Program-made: the position numbers and the translations under genes
The notes under the pieces: model-generated
Databases searched by the model: none
Seen by the model: only the letters and a program-made list of their open reading frames with translations
What the model was told of the DNA's origin: nothing
Assembly (NCBI GenBank): GCA_018242255.1
Contig: JAFECH010000002.1
Location: 1 to 48,839, forward strand
DNA: 48,839 bases
Origin: Pseudomonadota bacterium
Lineage (GTDB): Bacteria; Pseudomonadota; Alphaproteobacteria; Rhizobiales; Hyphomicrobiaceae
Reading direction: 5' to 3'
Part shown: piece by piece, positions 4,075 to 48,839 of the stretch
How the letters are laid out: every line of letters starts with the position of its first letter
How positions within the stretch are numbered: the stretch's first letter is position 1

Positions 4075-4434
4075 CTACTGACGTACGGCGTACTTCATCT
4101 TTGTGGTCACCGTTTCGGCTTCTTCGAGAAGCGCTTCGCCGAGGCCGAATGCTTGTTCCGCCGTAAGGCCGTAAGCGGGATCATCCTCGAAACGCAACAT
4201 AACGACCGCCTCGTGTCGACCATGGCCGACAGCGAAATTATCCGGAATTTTGGTCAGACCTGCGCTTGGCTTCTGCGCGTCGGCGATGAGCGATGCGAGA
4301 GCGGCGACCGCATCAGCGCTCAGTGAGATCGTCTGGCAGTCGCCGGCCATGTTGCACAGCGAGATCTCAAGACGTCCGTTCGCGCGGTCTTGCTCGGAAC
4401 GGGTGAGAATTTCGGCGTAGAACGTTTCGGTCAT
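4075..4434 (-). CDS. Hypothetical protein, 119 aa
   Basis: An acidic soluble protein not recognised as a named family. It begins with TFYAEILTRSEQ, has a beta-rich start (RLEISLCNMAGDCQTISLSADAV), a middle helix (LIADAQKP) and a helical C-terminus rich in Glu and Ala (AFGLGEALLEEAETVTTKM). Two Cys (in LCNMAGDC) are five residues apart. No signal peptide or membrane helix is seen. Codon use looks coding and the reading frame is complete, so I treat it as real. The next minus-strand gene (csbD) lies upstream and is separated from it by an intrinsic terminator, so this gene has its own promoter. Confidence 0.65.
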   Translation of the reverse strand: MTETFYAEILTRSEQDRANGRLEISLCNMAGDCQTISLSADAVAALASLIADAQKPSAGLTKIPDNFAVGHGRHEAVVMLRFEDDPAYGLTAEQAFGLGEALLEEAETVTTKMKYAVRQ

Positions 4435-22594: not shown

Positions 22595-23000
22595 TCGGAC
22601 ATTCCCCAAATCGGCCGACCTGCAGGGCAATCTAGCCCTTTGCAGGTTCTGGCGCCTTGCGTTGCATTGGCGCTGGACGGTCCGGTGAGCTGCTAGACGT
22701 GGCCGGCATGCGCCCTGTCCTGAATATCGTCGGCAACGCGTCCACTCGTGAAGCTCATTATAGGCTCCAGCAATATGTGCGCGCCCGACTGGACAAAATG
22801 CCGAAATTTTCAACGAATTAGGATTATCGCCTTATCGTATCTCGATTACCGCGTCGCAAGCACAATTCGATTGCGGTTATTCGCTTGGCTCACGAAATCC
22901 ACATAGTTATCAACGTTCGAATTGGCGAAGTGGGAACAATTGCTATTTGTCGGCGACGCAATCCTGCTTATCCACATCGTCGCCGTATGACAGCTGGCGA
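22595..23000. other. 406-bp divergent intergenic region
   Basis: AT-rich in its right half (22790-22930). It carries the promoters of nupC and the 23001 gene, but no element could be assigned with confidence. No RNA gene was seen. Confidence 0.4.
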
Positions 23001-27472: not shown

Positions 27473-28669
27473 CTATCGAGGCAGCGCGTCGCGAGACATC
27501 ATCTCTTCGATCGAGATCGTGTCTTTGGGCTCATGTAGGAAAACGCCCTCGATCGGGTCAACATCATGCTGCCAAGGCGCCTGCTCGATTGCGCGCATCG
27601 TTTGCTCGTAACCCGCCTGCCAGCGCTTTTTGATGCCCGATGCACTGAAGTCGACATCTTTTGTGTGGTCTTCATTTTCGTGACCCGACCACAGGAGACG
27701 CACAAAATGCATTCGCGTCAGGCAGCCGTAACTCGTTAGATGTCGCACTTCCTCGCGAGTCCGTAGTTCTTCCGGAATGTATTTAGCAAGCTCCTTAATG
27801 ATGTGACGGAGCCGATGGATCTGCGCCTGACGCGTAATATGGGTCGCGACCCGGCTCGAATATTGAATGTTCTTCTGGCGGTGGAGAACTTCCCAGATCG
27901 TCTCCGGCTCGGGACCAACCGGGTTCCAAACGTGCACCGTGAAGACGAGCGAGTTCTTACGGGGATTATCGTCGAATATCGCTTCGGCTGGCGTATTGGA
28001 TAGAATACCGCCATCCCAATAAAGTTCGCCGTCTATTTGGACAGCGGGAAACGCCGGCGGCAACGCACCGGACGCCATGATATGTTTCGCGGTGATCTCG
28101 GTTTCCTGACTATCGAAGTAGTGCATCTGACTCGTACGAACCTGCGCTGCACCAACCGTCAGACGTGGGGTGTTGCGCCGGATGAGTTTGAAATCGACAA
28201 GCTCATTGAGTGTAGATTCAAGTTCCGACGTGGAGTAGAAGCCGGCTTTCTCGGATCCAAGCTGTACATGCGGTCCGCAAAAGGCCATTGGATTAGGCTT
28301 ATAGAAGCCGGAAATTCCGCTCGTCACGGCCTGCCAATAGGACAGGCCAGAGGCAAGCTGGGGCCAGAACATCAACGCATCCCAGGCTGCACGCTGTGTC
28401 ATTCGTCCCCAGAATTCCTGCAATGCCGCAAGCCTATTGTTCGGTTCGTTGCCGACGATCAATGACGCGTTGATGGCTCCGATCGATGTTCCGATTACCC
28501 AGTCGGGCTCGATGCCCGCTTCGTGGAGCGCGTGGTAGACGCCAGATTGATATGCGCCGAGTGCCCCGCCGCCTTGCAGGACAAGCACGATCTGCCCATA
28601 CCCTGCCGTTCGAGAATTGGGGCCTAGCCGGCTCGCGCTACCTGCTTCATTCTTCGAGACGAGATTCAT
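27473..28669 (-). CDS. Patatin-like phospholipase with DUF3734 (second of four)
   Basis: A 398-residue patatin-fold hydrolase. Oxyanion loop LQGGGALGAYQSGVY, nucleophile Ser62 in GTSIGAINAS, catalytic Asp219 in YWDGGILSN and a C-terminal extension with GIKKRWQAGYEQTMRAI that is characteristic of the DUF3734-type patatins, a group common near 3-hydroxybutyrate and PHB genes in alphaproteobacteria. The protein has no signal peptide. GGAGGATCC precedes the ATG. It is last of a minus-strand series (bdhA, cupin, MFS, DUF302, patatin) and follows DUF302 by 30 bp. It is a paralog of the gene at 35913-37040. Confidence 0.92.
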   Translation of the reverse strand: MNLVSKNEAGSASRLGPNSRTAGYGQIVLVLQGGGALGAYQSGVYHALHEAGIEPDWVIGTSIGAINASLIVGNEPNNRLAALQEFWGRMTQRAAWDALMFWPQLASGLSYWQAVTSGISGFYKPNPMAFCGPHVQLGSEKAGFYSTSELESTLNELVDFKLIRRNTPRLTVGAAQVRTSQMHYFDSQETEITAKHIMASGALPPAFPAVQIDGELYWDGGILSNTPAEAIFDDNPRKNSLVFTVHVWNPVGPEPETIWEVLHRQKNIQYSSRVATHITRQAQIHRLRHIIKELAKYIPEELRTREEVRHLTSYGCLTRMHFVRLLWSGHENEDHTKDVDFSASGIKKRWQAGYEQTMRAIEQAPWQHDVDPIEGVFLHEPKDTISIEEMMSRDALPR

Positions 28670-35912: not shown

Positions 35913-37040
35913 CTAATTTGGCGCGAGTTCCTTTGTAAGATCGAGCACGAGCACTCCGTCATCAGGGCGTTTGCGGAACTTCCACTCCGGGTTATTGAGT
36001 GTCCGCTCAACATCATCTTTGCCGTCACGCCAATGTTCACTCACGGTGAAGCGAGAAAACTCATAATCCTCTGCTTGTGTCGAGTAGATCGCACGCCGAT
36101 GGATGAGATGCACAATTGTGATGGCGGCGTCGCTCGTAAGTTCAGCCAGAATCTTCCAATCCGCGCTCGACTTGACTTCATCGCTAAGTGCGCACCCTAA
36201 CCGGCGTATGGCGCGTTGGAGAGTCAGGAGCCGCTTTGTGTAATCGGTATTGAGGCGCGTGCGGCTAGAATAGCGGATTTCTTTTTCGCGCGTCTGCACG
36301 TCAAAAAGATTTTCGGGAATCCGACCGCGAGCTGAAAACAAATCGATCTGAAAAATGCACATGTCGGTGAGCGGGGCGCCGCCATCCAAGACATACTGTA
36401 GAGGCGTATTCGACAAGAGCCCACCATCCCAATACAGCTCTCCGTCAATTTCTACTGGGGGAAAGCCCGGCGGGAGTGCGCCGCTGGCCATGATGTGATC
36501 GGGGCCAATGGTATCGCGCTCAGTATCGAAGTATTTGAAGTTTCCCGTCTGCACTTCAACGGCGCCAATGCTGAAGCGGACTTTCCCGCGATTGAGCAGG
36601 TCGAAATCTATGAGCTCAAGCAGCGTGTCTTTGAGAGGACTGGTATCGTAAAGACTAACAGCTTGAAGAGACCCAGGCGGCATCAACACAGATGGTGGAA
36701 ATCTCGGCTCGAAAAACCCCGGCGCTCCCGTTGCCGCAACGAGGGCAGCGCTGGCCTCGTTGAAAAGTTTGCGCGAATAATTGTCATTTGAAAGCGGCGG
36801 GAAAGTTACCCGGCTCGAAACCAAATCCCAGAACCTGCGAAGGCGATCGACGCGCTTTTCTTTTTCATTGCCCGCTATGATCGCAGCGTTAATCGCCCCT
36901 ATCGAAATTCCAGCGACCCAATCAGGCTCTAAGCTTGCTTCTTCTAGGGCTTCGAACGCGCCAGCTTGATAGGAACCGAGAGCCCCGCCGCCCTGGAGAA
37001 CGAGGATTTTTTTCTCGCTTTTTGCATTGCTTTTGGTCAT
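35913..37040 (-). CDS. Patatin-like phospholipase with DUF3734 (third of four)
   Basis: A 375-residue paralog of 27473: KILVLQGGGALGSYQAGAFE, nucleophile Ser46 in GISIGAIN, then HIMASGALPPGFPPVEIDGE with catalytic Asp in YWDGGLLSN and the DUF3734 end (YEFSRFTVSEHWRDGKDDV). No signal peptide. It starts 30 bp after the PQQ dehydrogenase stop on the same strand and is surely co-transcribed with it. A phospholipase and a quinoprotein dehydrogenase in one operon is unusual; the lipase might release a hydroxylated substrate or remodel the membrane around the dehydrogenase. The ATG at 37040 has no strong ribosome site. Confidence 0.9.
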   Translation of the reverse strand: MTKSNAKSEKKILVLQGGGALGSYQAGAFEALEEASLEPDWVAGISIGAINAAIIAGNEKEKRVDRLRRFWDLVSSRVTFPPLSNDNYSRKLFNEASAALVAATGAPGFFEPRFPPSVLMPPGSLQAVSLYDTSPLKDTLLELIDFDLLNRGKVRFSIGAVEVQTGNFKYFDTERDTIGPDHIMASGALPPGFPPVEIDGELYWDGGLLSNTPLQYVLDGGAPLTDMCIFQIDLFSARGRIPENLFDVQTREKEIRYSSRTRLNTDYTKRLLTLQRAIRRLGCALSDEVKSSADWKILAELTSDAAITIVHLIHRRAIYSTQAEDYEFSRFTVSEHWRDGKDDVERTLNNPEWKFRKRPDDGVLVLDLTKELAPN

Positions 37041-37069
37041 GTCGAAGCGTTTGTTTCGGAGCTTTTGGT

Positions 37070-38878
37070 TCAAGATGTTCCGTCGGGAATGCCGACGACT
37101 GAAACCTTGGCCGTGGTGAGTTCGGTCGGCCACAAAACCTCAGTAAGGCCGGACGCCACGGCGACGCGCTGCGCGCCGCGATCTTTGTAGGTGATGACCC
37201 CGCCGCCTATCGCGCCGCCGATTTTTTGACCCCAGAGCTTGTGCCCGTCCTGAGCGTCGAGGGCGTAGAAGTTGCCGCCCATATCGCCGAAGAAAACGAC
37301 GCCACCTGCCGTCGGGGTCATCCCGCTCTGAATCGGGTAATTCGTTTTAGCCCGCCAACGCCATTGACCGCTATCTGCGTCGACCGCGTAGACCCAGCCT
37401 GCCCAGTCAAAAGTGGGATCGGCTTGGCCCCAAGTATTGAAAGGATTGATTGAGTTCTCGCCGGACCATGGCGCCCCGGCGTTCACGTCTTCAATCTTGT
37501 CCTTCTTCATGAGGTCAACAGTGGTGCACCATTGAACTTCTCCGACCATGATAAGGTTGTTACTGCGGTCGTAAGCTGGGCCGTTCCATTCGGCGCCGCC
37601 AGTAGAACCGGGGCAGAAGTGGACGGCTTTTCCCGGCGTAAACGGCGCATCGGCGTTGTCGACTTTCGTGACCGGCAGGCGATAGAGTTCCTTATTAGTG
37701 CCGAGGTCGATGCCATAGAGATGACCGTCCTTGGGAGCGACGGCCAGGATTTTCTTGCCAGCAGCAGTCTTGATAATAGCCGGCGCGCTAGATACGTCCC
37801 AGTCGTGCCAGTCTTTCGGAACGAGCTTGAAGTGCGTCTTGTACGCACCCGTCTTGGCATCGAGCACGACAACAGATCCGGTATATAGATCGCTCCCTTC
37901 CCGCATCCCGAGACCAAAATCAGGAGCGGGGTTGCCGCCGGGGATGTACAGCAGCCCCGTTTCAGGATCGAGCGTGTAGGAAGTCCATGTCGCGCCACCC
38001 GTAATCGGCTGACCTGCAGGCAACTTCCAACTCGCACCCGTCAGCGGCGACGCCGCCTCCGGCCCGCGCTCCGGATCATTTTTCGATTTTGGCACCAGGT
38101 AGAATTCCCACTTGATCGCGCCGGTTGTCGCATCGAGCGCATACATTCGACCCTTGATGCCCTTGATGTCGCCCCCGGCGTTTCCGACAAAGACGAGTCC
38201 GTTCCATGCTATCGGCGCCGCGGGAACACTTTCGCCTTTCTTGGGATCAGCAATCGACGTCTGCCACAACCGCTTACCGGTTTTCGCGTCGTAGGCGATG
38301 ACTCGGCCGTCCTGAGTGCCGCGGAAGATTTTGCCATCGAGATAGGCTACGCCGCGGTTGACGCCCTGCGGCGTAGCGGGTGTGTAGCTCTCGTGCGCGC
38401 GCCACTTCTCGCGGCAAGTGCTGGGATCGATGGCGAAGGTGTTGTATTCAGTGGCAAAGTACAGCGCGCCATCGACCTCAAGTATGCCGGAGTTGAAACC
38501 GGTGTATTCGCCAGTATCAAACGTGCAAAGAACCTTCAGTTTGTGGGCATTTTTTGCGTTGATATCGGCGAGCGACGAGAAGCGGTCGGAGGTCAGCGTC
38601 TTGTTATAGCTGGGCCAGTTTGTATCGCTTGCTGTGGGCGCCTCGGATGTCGAAGCTGGCGTTGCCGGCGCTTCGCTCGCACCTGTTGAAGCGGTGCTTT
38701 TGGCGGAAGAAGCGACTTCAGTCGTAATCTTGCCCTTTGGCGCATCAAGATAGCGGACATAGTTTATGGCCATCGAGCCGTAATGCACCGCTGAATCCCA
38801 GTAGAAATAAGCGAAGCCCGCTGCGATAATTCCGCCTAACACCAGTGTGCCGCCGATGATCTGCGCTAATCTTGTCAT
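37070..38878 (-). CDS. Membrane-anchored PQQ-dependent alcohol dehydrogenase, lanthanide-type Asp
   Basis: A 602-residue quinoprotein. An N-terminal membrane anchor (IIGGTLVLGGIIAAGFAYFY, residues 7-26) replaces a cleaved signal, then a Ser/Ala/Thr linker (50-85) and an eight-bladed propeller with repeated W-docking pieces (YDAKTGKRLWQTSIAD, YALDATTGAIKWEFY, YAVDADSGQWRWRA, YALDAQDGHKLWGQKI). The catalytic region reads PKDWHDWDVSSAP: Asp359 is the base and Asp361 two residues on is the extra ligand found in lanthanide-using methanol/alcohol dehydrogenases (Asp-x-Asp; calcium enzymes have Ala, Ser or Thr). The adjacent-Cys pair of classical MxaF/XoxF is missing. A consensus EcfG promoter precedes it. 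Confidence 0.88.
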   Translation of the reverse strand: MTRLAQIIGGTLVLGGIIAAGFAYFYWDSAVHYGSMAINYVRYLDAPKGKITTEVASSAKSTASTGASEAPATPASTSEAPTASDTNWPSYNKTLTSDRFSSLADINAKNAHKLKVLCTFDTGEYTGFNSGILEVDGALYFATEYNTFAIDPSTCREKWRAHESYTPATPQGVNRGVAYLDGKIFRGTQDGRVIAYDAKTGKRLWQTSIADPKKGESVPAAPIAWNGLVFVGNAGGDIKGIKGRMYALDATTGAIKWEFYLVPKSKNDPERGPEAASPLTGASWKLPAGQPITGGATWTSYTLDPETGLLYIPGGNPAPDFGLGMREGSDLYTGSVVVLDAKTGAYKTHFKLVPKDWHDWDVSSAPAIIKTAAGKKILAVAPKDGHLYGIDLGTNKELYRLPVTKVDNADAPFTPGKAVHFCPGSTGGAEWNGPAYDRSNNLIMVGEVQWCTTVDLMKKDKIEDVNAGAPWSGENSINPFNTWGQADPTFDWAGWVYAVDADSGQWRWRAKTNYPIQSGMTPTAGGVVFFGDMGGNFYALDAQDGHKLWGQKIGGAIGGGVITYKDRGAQRVAVASGLTEVLWPTELTTAKVSVVGIPDGTS

Positions 38879-39983: not shown

Positions 39984-40579
39984 GGCTGGTTGATCCTTCT
40001 CATGAGGGTTTGCGCCGATGAATCGAAGGACCGGCGGGGTGGTGCGCGGCTCGAAGACGGGCCCCGGCATTCCGAGGGACGTCTGATGGGTCGTTGAACA
40101 TCGCCCATGTTTTAGCTGGATGCTGTGGCGCGCAGCGACAAGCCAGTTGCGGCTTTTATGGACAAATCTTAAGCCCGAATATCGCTTGCAGAAAGAGGGA
40201 CTGGTCTTTGCCGGAACTTCGTCGCGGAGATTTTCGCCAGTTGTTTGCGCGCTTTGGCGAGGAGAGACTCTTGCTCGAACTAAGATCGTCTTAGGAGAAA
40301 AGTCACGACGCAGATAGGGCAGCTCGTTAATCTGCGCGCCACTCGTTGGCGATTACCGACATCGAACTTTCTATCGGCCTGGGGTCGGCCTTGCGATGGC
40401 GCAGCAAAGCAATTTGCTAGCCTCGCCTCATCGCAAGCGGGCCACGTACGAGACCTTAGAGGTCTAGTACCGGGCATTGAAGTCAGGTGCAGATTTTTTG
40501 CATTTTGCGGCGCAGCGTTACGATAAGCAGCGGACCGCCGTGCTACAATGAACCAAAACGCTCGCTATTCGGCCGCCCA
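39984..40579. other. 596-bp divergent region upstream of the NTE-like gene
   Basis: No gene was recognised. A plus-strand frame near 40094-40300 has no ribosome site. A 25-base dyad at 40446-40470 is the only clear feature; otherwise the region looks like promoter sequence for both flanking genes. Confidence 0.45.
40446..40470. promoter_or_regulatory. 25-bp dyad, possible operator
   Basis: GTAC-G-AGACCT-TAG-AGGTCT-A-GTAC: arms of 11 bases with one mismatch and a three-base centre. It lies 110 bases before the NTE-like gene and has the form of a dimer-binding operator; the regulator is unknown. Confidence 0.4.
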
Positions 40580-42406
40580 ATGTCGCCCAAGCGATTGACG
40601 CTATCCAGTGTCGCGACTTTCAAAGATCTTCCATTTGCAGCTCTTCGGCTTCTCGAGGATCGCTTGCAGCCAATCCATGTCGGTCGCGGCGAGTTTGTTG
40701 TGCGGGAGGGCGAAGCTGCAGACGCCCTCTACGTCGTCGTATCTGGGCGTTTCGCCGTCGAGGTCAAAGGATACTCCGGCACGGTCGCAGAAATTTCGCG
40801 CGGTTCCACAATCGGCGAGATCGCTTTTTTTGCAGGCTGCAATAGGACGGCGACAGTGCGCGCTATACGAGACGGAATAGTCGTACGTCTCACTCGCACC
40901 GACTTCGACTCAATCTCCGAGAATTCCTCCGCTGCTTGGGCCGCTATAACGGCGACGTTGGCGGAGCGTCTCGCAGCAGAAACACGACGCAAATCTGAGA
41001 TTAGCAATAATTTTTTGGCAACAAATGCGAGGCCACGAGCGCGCACCATTGCTATTGTCGGAGCGACTTCCGGATTTATGGCACCACCTTTCCTGAATGC
41101 ATTCGCAGACTCGGCTTCCTCGAAATCCGGCACGCTGGTCGTGTCGAGCACGACAATAAGCGACGTAATCGGGGGCCAGTGTAATACTGATCTGGATTTC
41201 ACCGCAGCGCTAAACGAACTCGAATGTCGATTTGAAACGATCATATTTATCGCAGATCCAGAACTGACCCGCTGGAGCGAAAAATGCATTCGGCAGGCCG
41301 ACGAGGTACTGCTCGTCGCATGTTCCGTTGACGCGCACGCAACAGCTACGGTCCCGCTCGGAAATCTCGAAGCCTTTGCACTGTCGGTTCATCCGCAGTC
41401 TTCGAGAAGGCTGGCGATCGTGCACAGAAGCGGCGGCATTGCAGAAGGCACGCGCCATTGGCTTGCTTTAAGAGAGCCTGCCATGCACCATCATGTGGCT
41501 CTGCAGTGCACGAATGATGTCGAACGCCTCTGGCGATTTCTGGCGGGCGAAGCTTTAGGTTTCGTTGCTTGCGGTGGCGGCGCTTACTGCTCAGCTCACA
41601 TTGGGGTGTACCGCGCTTTTCGGGAAGCGAGCATAGAATTCGACATATTGGGAGGAGCCTCCGGAGGCGCTGCGATGGCTGCCGCGTTTGCACAGGACCT
41701 CGATCCGCTTTCCATCACGTCTGGTGTGCAGCGAATGTTTGTCAAAGGGCGAGCCCTTTCACGATATACTTTGCCCAGATATGGCCTGCTCGATCACACC
41801 CATTTCGATACTCACCTCAGGCGCGAATACGGAGGCGTTCGCATCGAAGATCTTTGGAAACCGTACTTCGCTGTTTCGGCCGATCTGTCGAACTATGAAA
41901 CCTACGTCCATCGCACGGGATATCTATGGCAGGCCATCCGCGCGAGCTCGGCGATACCCGGATTGCTGCCACCATTTTACACTGAAGATGGGCGGATGCT
42001 CGTAGACGGGTCGGTCATTTCGAACGTGCCGGTCGAGACGATGCATGCGCTAAAGAACGGGCCAAATGTTGTTGTCAGCTTTCAAGGATCGGAGGGACAG
42101 AAATTTGAAGTCGACTACGCGTCCCTTCCGAAACGCACCGACTTAATTTGGCGGACACTCAATCCTTTCTCGAACCAACCATTGCCGTCGGCCCCATCCG
42201 CCGCAACAGTCCTGGTCCGTAGCTTGATGGCCAATCGCGATCATTTCGAACGTTATCTGCAAGTAGGTGATTGGCTGCTGGTACCCCCCACGCCGCTCGG
42301 AATGGGCGCATTAGACTGGCGTCGACATTCAGAAGTTATGACTGCCGCCTATGAATATACCCGTGAGGAAATAGCTTTGCGTAGGCCGGTTGGATATGCC
42401 GGCTAG
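40580..42406 (+). CDS. NTE-like protein: cyclic-nucleotide-binding domain plus patatin (fourth of four)
   Basis: A 608-residue two-domain phospholipase. The N-terminal cNMP domain (about 1-140) contains FVVREGEAADALYVVVSGRF and the phosphate-binding-cassette-like STIGEIAFFAGCNRTATVRA; a middle region (150-320) links it to a patatin domain. Nucleophile Ser361 in GGASGGAAM and Asp477 in MLVDGSVISNVP are intact. The oxyanion loop, however, reads ACGGGAYCSAHIG where the family has GGGxRG: the Arg-Gly is replaced by Tyr-Cys. It may therefore be a weakened or altered lipase. No signal peptide. The neighbours are the PQQ group (divergent) and a choloylglycine-hydrolase-like gene. Confidence 0.85.
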   Translation: MSPKRLTLSSVATFKDLPFAALRLLEDRLQPIHVGRGEFVVREGEAADALYVVVSGRFAVEVKGYSGTVAEISRGSTIGEIAFFAGCNRTATVRAIRDGIVVRLTRTDFDSISENSSAAWAAITATLAERLAAETRRKSEISNNFLATNARPRARTIAIVGATSGFMAPPFLNAFADSASSKSGTLVVSSTTISDVIGGQCNTDLDFTAALNELECRFETIIFIADPELTRWSEKCIRQADEVLLVACSVDAHATATVPLGNLEAFALSVHPQSSRRLAIVHRSGGIAEGTRHWLALREPAMHHHVALQCTNDVERLWRFLAGEALGFVACGGGAYCSAHIGVYRAFREASIEFDILGGASGGAAMAAAFAQDLDPLSITSGVQRMFVKGRALSRYTLPRYGLLDHTHFDTHLRREYGGVRIEDLWKPYFAVSADLSNYETYVHRTGYLWQAIRASSAIPGLLPPFYTEDGRMLVDGSVISNVPVETMHALKNGPNVVVSFQGSEGQKFEVDYASLPKRTDLIWRTLNPFSNQPLPSAPSAATVLVRSLMANRDHFERYLQVGDWLLVPPTPLGMGALDWRRHSEVMTAAYEYTREEIALRRPVGYAG

Positions 42407-44180: not shown

Positions 44181-44744
44181 CTAATTTTTTACGGCGCCAT
44201 CAGCCTTTCCCGTCACATGGTCTTTCAACCCATCTGGCAGTTTGGATTTGATACTGGTGATGCCAGATTTAAACACACTGTCGATGGCGGCGCGGGCATC
44301 GCGATCTGTTTTCCCGTCGGCCGCATCGTACGAAGCCGACCAGACGATATCCAACTCATCGTTAGTGGAGTTGACCGAAAAATTCGCTTCGTAATTTTTT
44401 ACCGGCAGTGGACTTTCGACAATCGCATAGCGGTAGCCCGACGGGCTGAGACTCAGCAACCTCTCCTTGATCTTTCCACCGTCCTCCAAGGAGAGAGTAC
44501 GGTAGACAACACCATCTTCCTTGCCTTCCGTACATGAGCGCACCGCTGGGTGCCACTCGGCTATCTGGCAAAAATTGCCGAACCGCTCCCAAAGCAGTTT
44601 TGAATTGTCCTTGGCGGCCTTCCGATCGACTTTGATCTCTATCTTTTCGCTCGATGATAATTTCGCTGCAGAGGCGCCTTCGGTCACCCACGCTGCGCTC
44701 GCGATCATTGCCAAGAAGATGACCGCGCGACTTCGCATTGTCAT
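44181..44744 (-). CDS. SRPBCC-fold exported protein
   Basis: A 187-residue protein with a signal peptide (AVIFLAMIASAAWVTEGASA) and an SRPBCC (START/polyketide-cyclase-like) domain: LLWERFGNFCQIAEWHPAV, SCTEGKEDGVVYRTLSLEDG, IKERLLSLSPSGYRYAIVES and LDIVWSASYDAADG. The fold binds hydrophobic ligands. In quinoprotein-dehydrogenase operons such periplasmic SRPBCC proteins occur repeatedly with unknown role. It is last in the accessory operon, 30 bp after the YVTN gene. Confidence 0.82.
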   Translation of the reverse strand: MTMRSRAVIFLAMIASAAWVTEGASAAKLSSSEKIEIKVDRKAAKDNSKLLWERFGNFCQIAEWHPAVRSCTEGKEDGVVYRTLSLEDGGKIKERLLSLSPSGYRYAIVESPLPVKNYEANFSVNSTNDELDIVWSASYDAADGKTDRDARAAIDSVFKSGITSIKSKLPDGLKDHVTGKADGAVKN

Positions 44745-44774
44745 TTTTTCCACCACAGATCGATTGAGATGCGC

Positions 44775-45758
44775 CTATTTTTGGCCCGGTTTAACCGCGA
44801 CGCCCCAGGGCAAGCGACCGACTGGAACCGACTTTTCTGCCTTCTGCGTGGCAACGTCGATGACGGTAATGTCGTTCGTCATTCCGTTGGCAACGTACAT
44901 TTTTGTGCCATCTGGCTTCAGCTCGAGATGCCATGGTCTTTGACCGACCAAAATGTAATTCTTGATTTGGTATGTTGCAGTATCGACGACCGCTACTCGG
45001 TTGGAAGGCCCGAGCGCAATAAATGCTGTTTTGCCATCTAGCGTGAAGCGGATGCCGATTGGTTGCATCAGCTCGGGCCGAACTCCGGGCACGTCGAACA
45101 AAAGCTTCTTCTTGGTCTCAAATGTTTTTGCATCGATAATCGCGACGGTGCCGCCGACTTCCGCCGAAACCCAGACTTCTTTTCCATCCTTGGTGAAAGT
45201 GGCCTCTCGGGGCCGCGTGTCGACAAGGACGTTTGCCAGAACCTTGTTGGTCTTAGCATCGATGAAGTGCGCCATGCTCGTTTGCTCGGACGTATCGACT
45301 ATAAGGCTGTCGTCAGGCGAAACGGCCATGCCTTCGGGTTCGACACCTACGGGAATCTCCGCGATAGCCTCTCCGGTCGACCGATCCATTACCGTCACCA
45401 GACTATCGTCCTCGTTGGCGATGTAGATGAGATCGCCTTTATGATTGATAGCGAGGAGCTCAGGATCGGGACCAGATGCTGCGAACGATTTGATGACCTC
45501 GAGTTTGTCCGTATTGATAACGTCGAGCCGGTTGTCATCGCCGATGCAGACTATCAGTTCCCTGTAGTCCGGCGTCATCGCCATGCCTCGCGGACGTTTT
45601 CCGGTTGGAATGGTCTTGATGATCTTCAACGTATCGCTGTCTATGACAGTGACGGTGTTGTCACGTTCATTGGAAACAAAAATCTTATCAGCGTGAGCCG
45701 ACGTCGTGGCACTCAACAAGAGAGCAGCCAGGATCGTGCGAGTCGAAGGTCTCAACAT
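44775..45758 (-). CDS. YVTN beta-propeller, PQQ-catabolism associated
   Basis: A 327-residue periplasmic protein with signal peptide (ILAALLLSATTSAHA) and seven YVTN-type blades, such as DKIFVSNERDNTVTVIDSDT, GDLIYIANEDDSLVTVMDRS, KMYVANGMTNDITVIDVATQ. It matches the 7-bladed propeller regularly found next to PQQ-dependent alcohol-dehydrogenase genes; role unknown, perhaps cofactor or cytochrome docking. It lies 26 bp after the ABC-type binding protein and 30 bp before the SRPBCC gene, a tight operon. Confidence 0.92.
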   Translation of the reverse strand: MLRPSTRTILAALLLSATTSAHADKIFVSNERDNTVTVIDSDTLKIIKTIPTGKRPRGMAMTPDYRELIVCIGDDNRLDVINTDKLEVIKSFAASGPDPELLAINHKGDLIYIANEDDSLVTVMDRSTGEAIAEIPVGVEPEGMAVSPDDSLIVDTSEQTSMAHFIDAKTNKVLANVLVDTRPREATFTKDGKEVWVSAEVGGTVAIIDAKTFETKKKLLFDVPGVRPELMQPIGIRFTLDGKTAFIALGPSNRVAVVDTATYQIKNYILVGQRPWHLELKPDGTKMYVANGMTNDITVIDVATQKAEKSVPVGRLPWGVAVKPGQK

Positions 45759-45784: not shown

Positions 45785-46984
45785 TCATCCGGATAGTTTG
45801 CAGGCCGTTTCCGGCGCATCAACGCCGAGCGTGTCGGTCAGATACGTCGGATGAAGAAAGCCTTCCTGTGGAGACATGGATACGATTGTTCGTGGACCTG
45901 TGAGGATGATCGGTTGGCGCAATTGACGGTCCCACGGACGAAAAGACATCCCCTGCCCTTTGAACCCCGCGACTTGAAATTGCGTCGACATGATATATGC
46001 GCGCCAGCCATCGACGTCCGACTTTCCCGACCGCGTAATGGCCTCGCCGAAAACCCGCATCGCCAGCCAAGCCAAGTAATCTCGTTCCGTCATCGGTCGC
46101 TTGTTCTGAGCGCGGAAGCGGGTCTGCAGCTGTATGCCGCCGTATTCCTCATAAAGCGGCGACCAAGCGACGGCCACGAGCCCCTGTGTGCCGGCGACAG
46201 GTTTCGGGACGGACGTTCGCCACAGAAGATAATCGCCGAAGCTATCCTGGGTATCGGCGACAAAGACGATATCATGCTGTGGTGCAGACTGCGTTCGCAT
46301 CGGGATTTGCGTTTGAATCTGTTGATGTCCCGTCTCAGAGTTACGATTGCCCGGATCGAACACGACCGTTCTCTCTTCGACAATGAAGCTTCCGAACTTC
46401 TTCGCGGCGCGCTTCATAGCATCAACGTAGTCGACATCCTCTTTGGTATTACCTTTGAGAAGAAACCAACGATTCCAGCGCTTCCAAGCCATGTATTGCG
46501 CGAGCGCATCGGCACGCATCGTCCAGCTCGGCGCGACATGAAAGAGATTGCGCCGGCAGTCCTTACCGCGAACATCATCGTTGCTCGTGCGCACGTTGAT
46601 GATGATGGCATCACGAGCCTCCGGAAGATCAGCAATGCGCAGAAGATCATCCGGCTCAAGATCGGCAACGATCAGGTGCGTGGTCTGAAGAAGCGCTTTC
46701 GCATCCGAAATGATGTCGCCGTTTCGCGGTGCGATCTTTTCCGACAGGTGATACGCCTGTCCGAGAAATCTCCCTGTGGCAAGATTATCGGCCAGTCCTA
46801 GTCGAGCGCCCTGCACGCCCTCGTCGGATATGGCCGGTTCGACGAGAGAAATCGGCAGGGGCTCGGGATAATCGCGCCCCAGATAGCCTATTTCGACATT
46901 AATACCAGGCGATGGAGCGAGATTAGCGTTGGCCGCTGAAATGATAGCGAACGGCAGCAGCCAAGCTAGACTTCGCATACGCAT
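45785..46984 (-). CDS. ABC-transporter-type binding protein of the PQQ alcohol dehydrogenase system
   Basis: A 399-residue periplasmic protein of the branched-chain-amino-acid-binding fold. After the signal peptide (SLAWLLPFAIISAANA) it has GINVEIGYLGRDYPEPL, TTHLIVADLEPDDLLRIADL, CRRNLFHVAPSWTMRADALA and DGWRAYIMSTQFQVAGFKG, the typical order of the PQQ-linked subgroup. It has no partner permease or ATPase gene in this operon. The upstream XoxJ-like gene ends 12 bp before it. Confidence 0.9.
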   Translation of the reverse strand: MRMRSLAWLLPFAIISAANANLAPSPGINVEIGYLGRDYPEPLPISLVEPAISDEGVQGARLGLADNLATGRFLGQAYHLSEKIAPRNGDIISDAKALLQTTHLIVADLEPDDLLRIADLPEARDAIIINVRTSNDDVRGKDCRRNLFHVAPSWTMRADALAQYMAWKRWNRWFLLKGNTKEDVDYVDAMKRAAKKFGSFIVEERTVVFDPGNRNSETGHQQIQTQIPMRTQSAPQHDIVFVADTQDSFGDYLLWRTSVPKPVAGTQGLVAVAWSPLYEEYGGIQLQTRFRAQNKRPMTERDYLAWLAMRVFGEAITRSGKSDVDGWRAYIMSTQFQVAGFKGQGMSFRPWDRQLRQPIILTGPRTIVSMSPQEGFLHPTYLTDTLGVDAPETACKLSG

Positions 46985-46996
46985 CTTCTGTACTTC

Positions 46997-48613
46997 TCAC
47001 TGCGTCGATTTCGGCCCGCCACTAGATGGCGCAGGCGTCGCGCTGGTCAGGAATTTCAGCGCACCCGATGCAGCTTCATTACCGGCCTCGGTCGCGATGT
47101 CGAGAGCGGTTTTTCCCGCCGCCGAAGTCATTTTTGGATCAGCCCCGGCGCGTAATAGAAGGCCGATCATTGGCGCATTGTTCTGGCCAGCCGCAATCAT
47201 CAAAGCCGTGACACCATCTTTGGACTGTGCATTCACGTTCGCCCCACGCTTTATCAACTCTTCGGCAAGCACGAGTGGGGTGGGACCATGCGCAAGTTGG
47301 TTCAAACGCTGTTGCGGTTGAAGTTGCGTCGCACAAACCATTAGTGGCGTCAGTTTCTCCGGACCGCTTGCTGCATCGACCTTGGCGCCCGCCTCGATCA
47401 ACGCCTTGGCTGCAAAGAACTGCCCATATGAGAGCGCGATCTCCAGCGCGGTGTAACCTTTCGTCGTTCCCTTCTCGATGTCTGCGCCATGCTTCGCAAG
47501 AAGCTGAATGGACGGCACATGATTAACATTTATTGCGTGCTGAAGGGCCGTCATTCCATCAATGTCTTCGGTGTCGACCTTGGCGCCAGCAGCAAGAAGA
47601 ATCTGCATCAGATCCGTCCGACGGATACTCGCGGCCGCGCCAAGCGGCAAAGCGCCGAGTTGATCGGGCTTGTTAACGTCCGCCCCCTTCTCGATCAGGA
47701 ACTTTATGCGATCGGCGTCGGCACCGACGATGGCGTTCATCAGCTCAGCGTTAACATCGACGCCCTGCTTCAGCCACGCCTCCAGCCGGGCACGCGTCAC
47801 GACTTGATCAGGCGACGCCTCGGCTGTGTGCTGCTGCGTCTTTTGAACCGTCAGATAGCGGTCCTCATAGGCTTGACCTTGTTGCTGCTGAAGAACACCT
47901 CGCGATGGTAGCGTGCCTTCGACGATGCAGTTCGAGCACTTGACGAGGGGCACTCCGTAGTCGTCGAGTATTTTAGCGATCTCGTCCTTGGCGTCTTCCA
48001 TCGCCATGTCGATTTTAAGTTTCAACACGACATCAGTGTTCTGAACGCCCCAGCCGAGCGAGAATTCGAGCGGCGTATTGTCGACCATCATGTTCACGGG
48101 CTGGAGTGTCAACGGCTCGCCCTTTTTCTTCAGCCAGCCCGCGAACGGCCCCCATACCGCCGCTACGTCGATCTTGCCATCGACAACGCGCTGAACCTGT
48201 CGCCAAGGCTGCTTCTCAGGTTCCAAATCGGCATCGACACTGACGATCTGCAGATCGACATTCTCCTTGATACCATGGTCTGCCAGAACTTGGCGCATCG
48301 CCGATTGCTGAAACACGCCGATCTTCAGTTTCTGCAATATCGGATCATCCATACTTTTGACGTTGAGACCCTTGTCGGAGCGATACGCGAGAACGTATGT
48401 CGAGCGGTAAAGCGGAACGGTGGTGAGAAGATCCGGATAATCCGTCGGCATGCCGAGGAGGATCTGACATTCATGATTATCGAACGTCTCGCGCGTGAGA
48501 CCGCGCTCGATATAGGGCCGCCAAAAAAAGGAAATATCGACGCCCATTTTTTGGCCGACGACCCCGGCGATTTTGTTCTCAAATCCGTCTTTTTTATCGT
48601 TTGAGAGCGGCAT
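46997..48613 (-). CDS. XoxJ-like binding protein fused to ankyrin repeats, 5' truncated
   Basis: A 538-residue frame. Residues 1-240 are the quinoprotein-dehydrogenase-associated periplasmic binding domain (XoxJ/MxaJ-like): NKIAGVVGQKMGVDISFFWR, LLTTVPLYRSTYVLAYRSDK, GKIDVAAVWGPFAGWLKKKG. From about 270 onward, six or so ankyrin repeats follow (KFLIEKGADVNKPDQLGALP, QLLAKHGADIEKGTTKGYTA, EELIKRGANVNAQSKDGVTA, GLLLRAGADPKMTSAAGKTA). The ATG at 48613 falls inside the family's conserved start (...DPGNMPLSND): the codons just before it still match (SDPGN), but the signal peptide and first strand are gone and an in-frame stop lies at 48635. The gene is thus probably broken, or the junction is an assembly artefact. 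Confidence 0.82.
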   Translation of the reverse strand: MPLSNDKKDGFENKIAGVVGQKMGVDISFFWRPYIERGLTRETFDNHECQILLGMPTDYPDLLTTVPLYRSTYVLAYRSDKGLNVKSMDDPILQKLKIGVFQQSAMRQVLADHGIKENVDLQIVSVDADLEPEKQPWRQVQRVVDGKIDVAAVWGPFAGWLKKKGEPLTLQPVNMMVDNTPLEFSLGWGVQNTDVVLKLKIDMAMEDAKDEIAKILDDYGVPLVKCSNCIVEGTLPSRGVLQQQQGQAYEDRYLTVQKTQQHTAEASPDQVVTRARLEAWLKQGVDVNAELMNAIVGADADRIKFLIEKGADVNKPDQLGALPLGAAASIRRTDLMQILLAAGAKVDTEDIDGMTALQHAINVNHVPSIQLLAKHGADIEKGTTKGYTALEIALSYGQFFAAKALIEAGAKVDAASGPEKLTPLMVCATQLQPQQRLNQLAHGPTPLVLAEELIKRGANVNAQSKDGVTALMIAAGQNNAPMIGLLLRAGADPKMTSAAGKTALDIATEAGNEAASGALKFLTSATPAPSSGGPKSTQ

Positions 48614-48675
48614 GTTGCCGGGATCGCTCCGCGGTCAGTTCACGCCTTACGGATATACACGGAAGGTTGTGAGCA
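48614..48675. other. Junction between two truncated genes
   Basis: About 60 bp between the 5' ends of the truncated XoxJ-like and xoxF sequences. On the minus strand homology to the XoxJ family fades beyond about 48628; on the plus strand xoxF homology starts at about 48676 after a TGA at 48670. No repeat, insertion-sequence end or recombination site was recognised. Confidence 0.5.
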
Positions 48676-48839
48676 CGCCCGCTGACCAAGCTGTTCTACG
48701 TTCCGACGAACCACGTCTGCATGGACTACGAACCGTTCAAGGTCTCGTACACGGCTGGTCAGCCCTACGTTGGCGCTACGCTTTCGATGTTCCCTGGCCC
48801 GGATAAGCCGGAGCGTATGGGTAACTTCATCGCTTGGGA
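48676..48839 (+). pseudogene. xoxF: 5'-truncated XoxF methanol dehydrogenase (fragment, runs off the window)
   Basis: In frame from about 48676 the translation reads [17 protein letters not shown], then [14 protein letters not shown] and RMGNFIAW, which is the well-conserved central-to-C-terminal part of XoxF-type PQQ methanol dehydrogenases (about residue 400 of 600). Everything before it, including the signal peptide, the adjacent-Cys pair and the catalytic Asp, is missing, and a stop codon precedes the homologous part by two codons. It cannot give an active enzyme unless the window joins sequences that are not neighbours in the genome. The rest of the gene lies beyond the window edge. Confidence 0.8.

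Follow-up and report, generated by a model that had tools for sequence, protein, structure and literature searches.

The comparisons presented here make it probable that the last 213 bp of contig C222 are a chimeric or misassembled contig tip. C222 makes up the entire stretch of DNA analysed (48,839 bp, called the window below) and is one of 404 contigs in the assembly of a Hyphomicrobium-like bacterium, whose tabulated completeness and contamination are 97.11% and 1.15%. Both breaks in methanol-oxidation genes, one in a XoxJ-like gene and one in a xoxF gene, fall within these 213 bp. The junctions, at 48626-48682, lie at or near the contig end, and position 48839 is itself that end, so that the xoxF fragment is cut on its 3' side as well (Table 1). 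A first-pass annotation had proposed an inversion/deletion scar or a misassembly and, for the case that the junction was real, a strain that lost a xoxF copy and kept its accessory genes. The underlying observation is correct in outline; of the two readings offered, the misassembly is probably right, and the scar, together with the loss of xoxF, probably wrong.

Table 1 Features of the window at and behind the contig end
Position	Strand	Feature	Basis
44181..44756	-	Polyketide_cyc2 (SRPBCC-type) protein	Domain match, open frame
44775..45758	-	TIGR03866 PQQ-associated beta-propeller, intact	Profile match, open frame
45785..46984	-	TIGR03863 periplasmic binding protein of a PQQ alcohol dehydrogenase system, intact	Profile match, open frame
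46997..48628	-	XoxJ/MoxJ-2-like periplasmic binding domain and ankyrin repeats in one protein	TIGR03871, Ank_2, 6onp
48626..48639	.	Junction A: about 300 bp missing, about 12 bp without traced origin	Alignment with eight relatives
48639..48679	-	3' tail of a xoxF1-type PQQ dehydrogenase gene (14 residues), its stop and the first bases after it	DNA matches
48679..48682	.	Junction B: xoxF1 antisense to xoxF sense, overlap of at most a base or few	Match limits
48679..48839	+	Fragment from within xoxF (residues 431-483), truncated where the contig ends	Match to G007, TIGR03075 positions 399-449

The possibility that C222 had been mis-binned from another organism was rejected. Its first 20 kb are collinear with G007 (80-83% in the main blocks), which was their best DNA match among six genomes compared, and its G+C content of 54.7-57.4% in 6-kb steps overlaps the 56.0-60.9% of 12 other contigs of the same genome, taken in part or whole. 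The DNA matches to G007 end at position 22685; beyond it the window, methanol-related genes included, has no match within the 59.7 kb of G007 compared. This part of the window also encodes a further PQQ-type dehydrogenase-like protein (37070-38878; 29% identity to the XoxF1-type enzyme described below) and three proteins that we take from their motifs to be patatin-like (27473-28669, 35913-37133 and 40487-42406), the last with an N-terminus that is presumably cyclic-nucleotide-binding-like.

The XoxJ-like protein scores 218.2 bits against TIGR03871 (MoxJ-2 type), above the curated cut-off of 212.15. Over its first part it also matches the structure of XoxJ, PDB 6onp (E 4.5e-29), and it is up to 84% identical to the proteins of relatives from residue 3 onward. 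On the minus strand its frame is open from 46997 to 48634 and is followed by an in-frame TGA at 48635-48637, and the first ATG within the contig is at 48613. Similarity to relatives ends at 48625/48626 in the DNA and at query residue 3, at about 48628, in the protein. The gene is thus cut at about codon 61: some 60 N-terminal codons, including a start that looks signal-like by eye, occur in relatives but are absent from the contig. In all eight relatives examined the protein extends about 60 residues further at its N-terminus, and the contig lacks this extension with its signal-like start. The loss of the signal peptide at about 48628, as annotated at first pass, agrees with the end of similarity at 48625-48628.

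Open frames were found for the XoxJ-ankyrin gene and for both genes that follow it (3/3). These three accessory genes show identities of 75-85% to six relatives and of 75-96% between relatives in the pairs listed, and resemble their counterparts in relatives as closely as those resemble one another. Values of dN/dS (YN00) were obtained for 8 of the 33 listed pairs, at 0.058-0.093 in the four that include the window and 0.033-0.143 in the four between relatives, and given this coverage selection on the accessory genes was judged mainly by open frames and identities. None of the three frames compared showed signs of the decay looked for in accessory genes stranded by a genomic scar. Open, undecayed frames favour a misassembly. 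They count against a real recent rearrangement, in which a deletion would have taken out the xoxF1-type gene together with the beginning of the XoxJ-ankyrin gene, and a xoxF copy truncated at its 5' end would have been attached to the broken end in inverted orientation, a course of events that we consider unlikely.

What precedes the XoxJ-like gene was determined from the intact locus of relatives, which runs on one strand from a XoxF1-type gene through the XoxJ-ankyrin gene and the TIGR03863 gene to the beta-propeller gene. The XoxF1-type gene came first in all eight relatives' loci examined. In each of them a dehydrogenase frame of 636-678 amino acids ends 293-436 nt before the start of homology to the XoxJ-like gene of the window, on the same strand. 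The WDYDG motif, which we take to be that of lanthanide enzymes, was found in all eight. The dehydrogenase of G019 is closest to PDB 7O6Z (E 8.1e-246, against 2.7e-155 for the next best structure), which is a XoxF1-type enzyme according to an excerpt of PMC8546591. By closest structure and lanthanide Asp, the dehydrogenase upstream of the XoxJ-like gene in relatives is, as judged from sequence, XoxF1-type, and its gene is 81-94% identical between G019 and the seven other relatives. Of the claim that two partner genes had been broken back to back, one half was correct, as both are cut; the neighbor of the XoxJ-like gene in relatives, however, is the XoxF1-type gene and not the xoxF found beside it here.

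The XoxJ-ankyrin protein had some match in 31 of the 41 genomes searched, its own included. The match extends from residue 3 to at least residue 534 in 11 of the 40 other genomes, in frames of 602-905 amino acids; ten of these have no stop inside the match, and G033 has one TGA. A scan of named genomes gave six loci, five with a full match. G007 yielded no full-length match, which indicates that even close relatives may lack the cluster, and this lends some weight to a real rearrangement. A second XoxJ-ankyrin copy, 49-51% identical to that of the window, occurs in 9 of the 11 genomes (G002, G003, G009, G010, G011, G013, G019, G020 and G021), in seven of them at 7.5-13 kb from the first, and has a dehydrogenase of its own with 72-75% identity to the G019 enzyme (six loci examined). 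No second copy was found in the genome of the window.

The XoxJ-like gene and the xoxF fragment are separated by the remains of a third gene. The DNA between them is 85% identical over 41 bp to positions 1032047-1032087 of G019, and the match to this xoxF1 tail reaches 89% in G020 and 86% in G016 over 35 bp. The presence of the xoxF1 tail between the two genes means that there are two junctions. At junction A, the xoxF1 tail is separated from the point where the XoxJ-like match ends by 313 bases in G019 but by 13 in the window, and about 300 bp are thus missing; in terms of the relatives, the gap begins after the XoxF1 stop and runs through the intergenic region to codon 60 of the XoxJ-like gene. 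Junction B is an inverted jump into a different xoxF. The single event invoked at first does not account for two junctions of such different types. The stop codons reported between the two genes are present, namely the TGA behind the XoxJ-like frame and a stop in the frame of the xoxF fragment at 48670-48672, but they include in part the genuine stop of the xoxF1 gene. Two unlike junctions within 213 bp of a contig end favor a misassembly, although a molecule with two independent chimeric joins is less to be expected than one with a single join.

The 12 or so bases at junction A were compared with the XoxJ-like gene and the intergenic region of relatives. An origin there was not proved, the best ungapped matches having shuffle p values of at least 0.07 in seven of seven relatives, and local searches with pieces of 14-24 bp from the junction gave no significant match in any of the seven. 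Bases of no traceable origin speak against a real rearrangement. The xoxF1 piece is flanked by a short inverted match (GGTCAG at 48633-48638 and CTGACC at 48682-48687), which may be due to chance. Short templated pieces between breakpoints are typical of template-switch repair. The piece between the two breakpoints here has this form and to that extent is in favor of a real rearrangement, perhaps by microhomology-mediated template switching that would have left the 41-bp xoxF1 shard.

As had been recommended with the initial annotation, the arrangement was compared with related loci: it occurs in none of 21 other genomes of the genus, 20 of which match some part of the query. The N-terminus of the XoxJ-like protein was found in all six relatives tested (the query source, G016, included) but not in the assembly of the window's own genome, in which the XoxF1-type protein of G019, used as query, had no counterpart above 48%. 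Thus, neither the arrangement in a relative nor the missing parts elsewhere in the genome were found, as they might be for a scar, but a young scar need show neither. That both parts are missing from the assembly favors a misassembly and fits a gap that starts at the contig end. It fits a real loss as well, the more so as the assembly is 97% complete, and a real deletion would predict the absence of xoxF1 equally.

The xoxF fragment represents residues 431-483 of a 606-residue XoxF. All 53 residues are identical to those of G007, and the DNA is 97% identical to the G007 copy (E 8.5e-73), too strong a match to be due to chance. We take the gene to be xoxF5-like. The annotated start of the reading in mid-protein, at about 48676, agrees with these limits. 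Before the contig ends, the fragment covers only positions 399-449 of the 530 of the TIGR03075 profile, short of a full-length XoxF. No identical match to it was found elsewhere in its own genome.

Other xoxF sequences are nonetheless plentiful in the assembly. One copy is complete on C278, 3' ends lie on C374, C54 and C36, and a 5' end lies on C19. The breaks in these partial copies are at four further contig ends (base 1 of each of C374, C54, C36 and C19), showing that the gene entered past junction B fragments the assembly elsewhere. C374 and C54 (loci L078 and L098) start at the same xoxF base and agree for exactly 55 bases from there; over 134 bp they are 97% identical. Their common prefix suggests at least two near-identical xoxF copies, and its length suggests a de Bruijn assembly with k = 55 that broke in a near-identical repeat. 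According to a passage of PMC7065363, it is prevalent for genomes to carry several copies of xoxF5. Taken together, the own xoxF copies appear to have been broken up by assembly. They lend no support to the proposed loss of a xoxF copy with retention of the accessory genes; the gene missing from the assembly, if any, is that of the XoxF1-type enzyme, a different one.

The surroundings of the xoxF copy in G007 with the best match to the fragment were also found in the assembly. On the left, the matching sequence is on C32 and reaches base 4252 of its 4254, a point that lies about 3.4 kb ahead of the start of xoxF; on the right, it covers bases 1 to 5296 of C374. C374 starts inside xoxF, which is followed there by a gene for a methanol-related cytochrome and by one of XoxJ type. 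As both flanks of a G007-type xoxF are thus present, the break between them looks like an assembly gap and not like a lost gene. The end of C32 places the left side of this gap outside xoxF, however, which is a point against the misassembly.

A contig that ends in a multi-copy gene, in an arrangement seen in none of the 21 other genomes, is what a misassembly predicts, and the same two facts make a real rearrangement doubtful. The contig end, the multi-copy gene, the inverted join and the other contigs ending in xoxF are all shared with artefactual tips at unresolved repeats; unlike these, the window has two junctions instead of one, and the four other xoxF ends are clean. Each of those four is collinear with xoxF from its first base, with no chimeric tip, which weakens the case for a misassembly and strengthens that for a rearrangement. 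When the final 400 bp of C222 were compared with the initial 400 bp of C374, C54, C36 and C19, no 20-mer was found in common, so that a direct graph link between C222 and the other xoxF ends is not supported. The fragment also reaches 161 bp into xoxF, further than one 55-mer, which again argues against a misassembly. G003 has a xoxF on the same strand as the XoxJ-ankyrin cluster and some 20 kb away from it, making a local inversion conceivable and a real rearrangement somewhat easier to envisage.

The junction could also be genuine in a minor strain and have been chosen by the assembler over the majority arrangement. The 404 contigs and the near-identical xoxF ends of C374 and C54 are compatible with strain variation, but searches of the bin revealed no alternative form of the locus and contamination is given as 1.15%, and we regard such a strain mixture as highly improbable. 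Little credence is likewise given, if somewhat more, to a genuine and very recent template switch by which this Hyphomicrobium-like bacterium would have deleted its XoxF1-type enzyme, beheaded the dedicated XoxJ-ankyrin partner and fused the scar, inverted, to a multi-copy xoxF. If the tip is chimeric or misassembled, as we favor, the true continuation of C222, with the XoxJ-like N-terminus, xoxF1 and what lies beyond, would not have been assembled or not binned; the bin may lack some short contigs. The contig would have been led astray by a wrong path in the graph, or by chimeric molecules, as few as one, and would have come to a stop in the part of the graph where xoxF was unresolved.

The sequences on the two sides of the junctions resemble different known systems. 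The XoxJ-like, TIGR03863 and beta-propeller genes have the order and strand of the XoxF1-type cluster of the genus, whose enzyme is the one closest to 7O6Z, but of the dehydrogenase gene only the last codons are present here, and the XoxJ-like protein lacks its N-terminus. The xoxF fragment, by its identity to the G007 copy, is akin to the xoxFGJ arrangement of xoxF, a cytochrome gene and a XoxJ-type gene; here, in contrast, the cytochrome and XoxJ-type neighbors are on C374 and not on C222. XoxJ, MxaJ and PedG are described in excerpts of PMC12997753 as periplasmic binding proteins and proposed helpers in the activation of the apo-dehydrogenase, PedA1 as an ABC substrate-binding protein and PedA2 as a PQQ-dependent catabolism-associated beta-propeller. 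The window shares with these the XoxJ-type binding domain, and its TIGR03863 and TIGR03866 genes resemble those of PedA1 and PedA2; unlike in the window, no fusion of ankyrin repeats to a XoxJ-type domain is described in those excerpts.

This fusion of a XoxJ-type periplasmic domain to ankyrin repeats occurs in the window and at loci L041 and L103-L107. No description of it was found in the literature searched on ankyrin with XoxF, quinoprotein, methanol dehydrogenase or substrate-binding protein, which is not proof of absence, and the ankyrin passages of PMC7589939 concern other bacteria. Sequences of xoxF1 like those of Hyphomicrobium have been reported from soil, according to an extract of PMC7065363.

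Taken at face value, a contig end such as this one would be annotated as a lost lanthanide methanol dehydrogenase, and gene counts would be biased as a result. The locus of the relatives suggests instead that the XoxJ-like gene belongs with the XoxF1-type enzyme, and the more interesting lead is this intact locus, with its XoxJ-type-ankyrin fusion beside a XoxF1-type enzyme.
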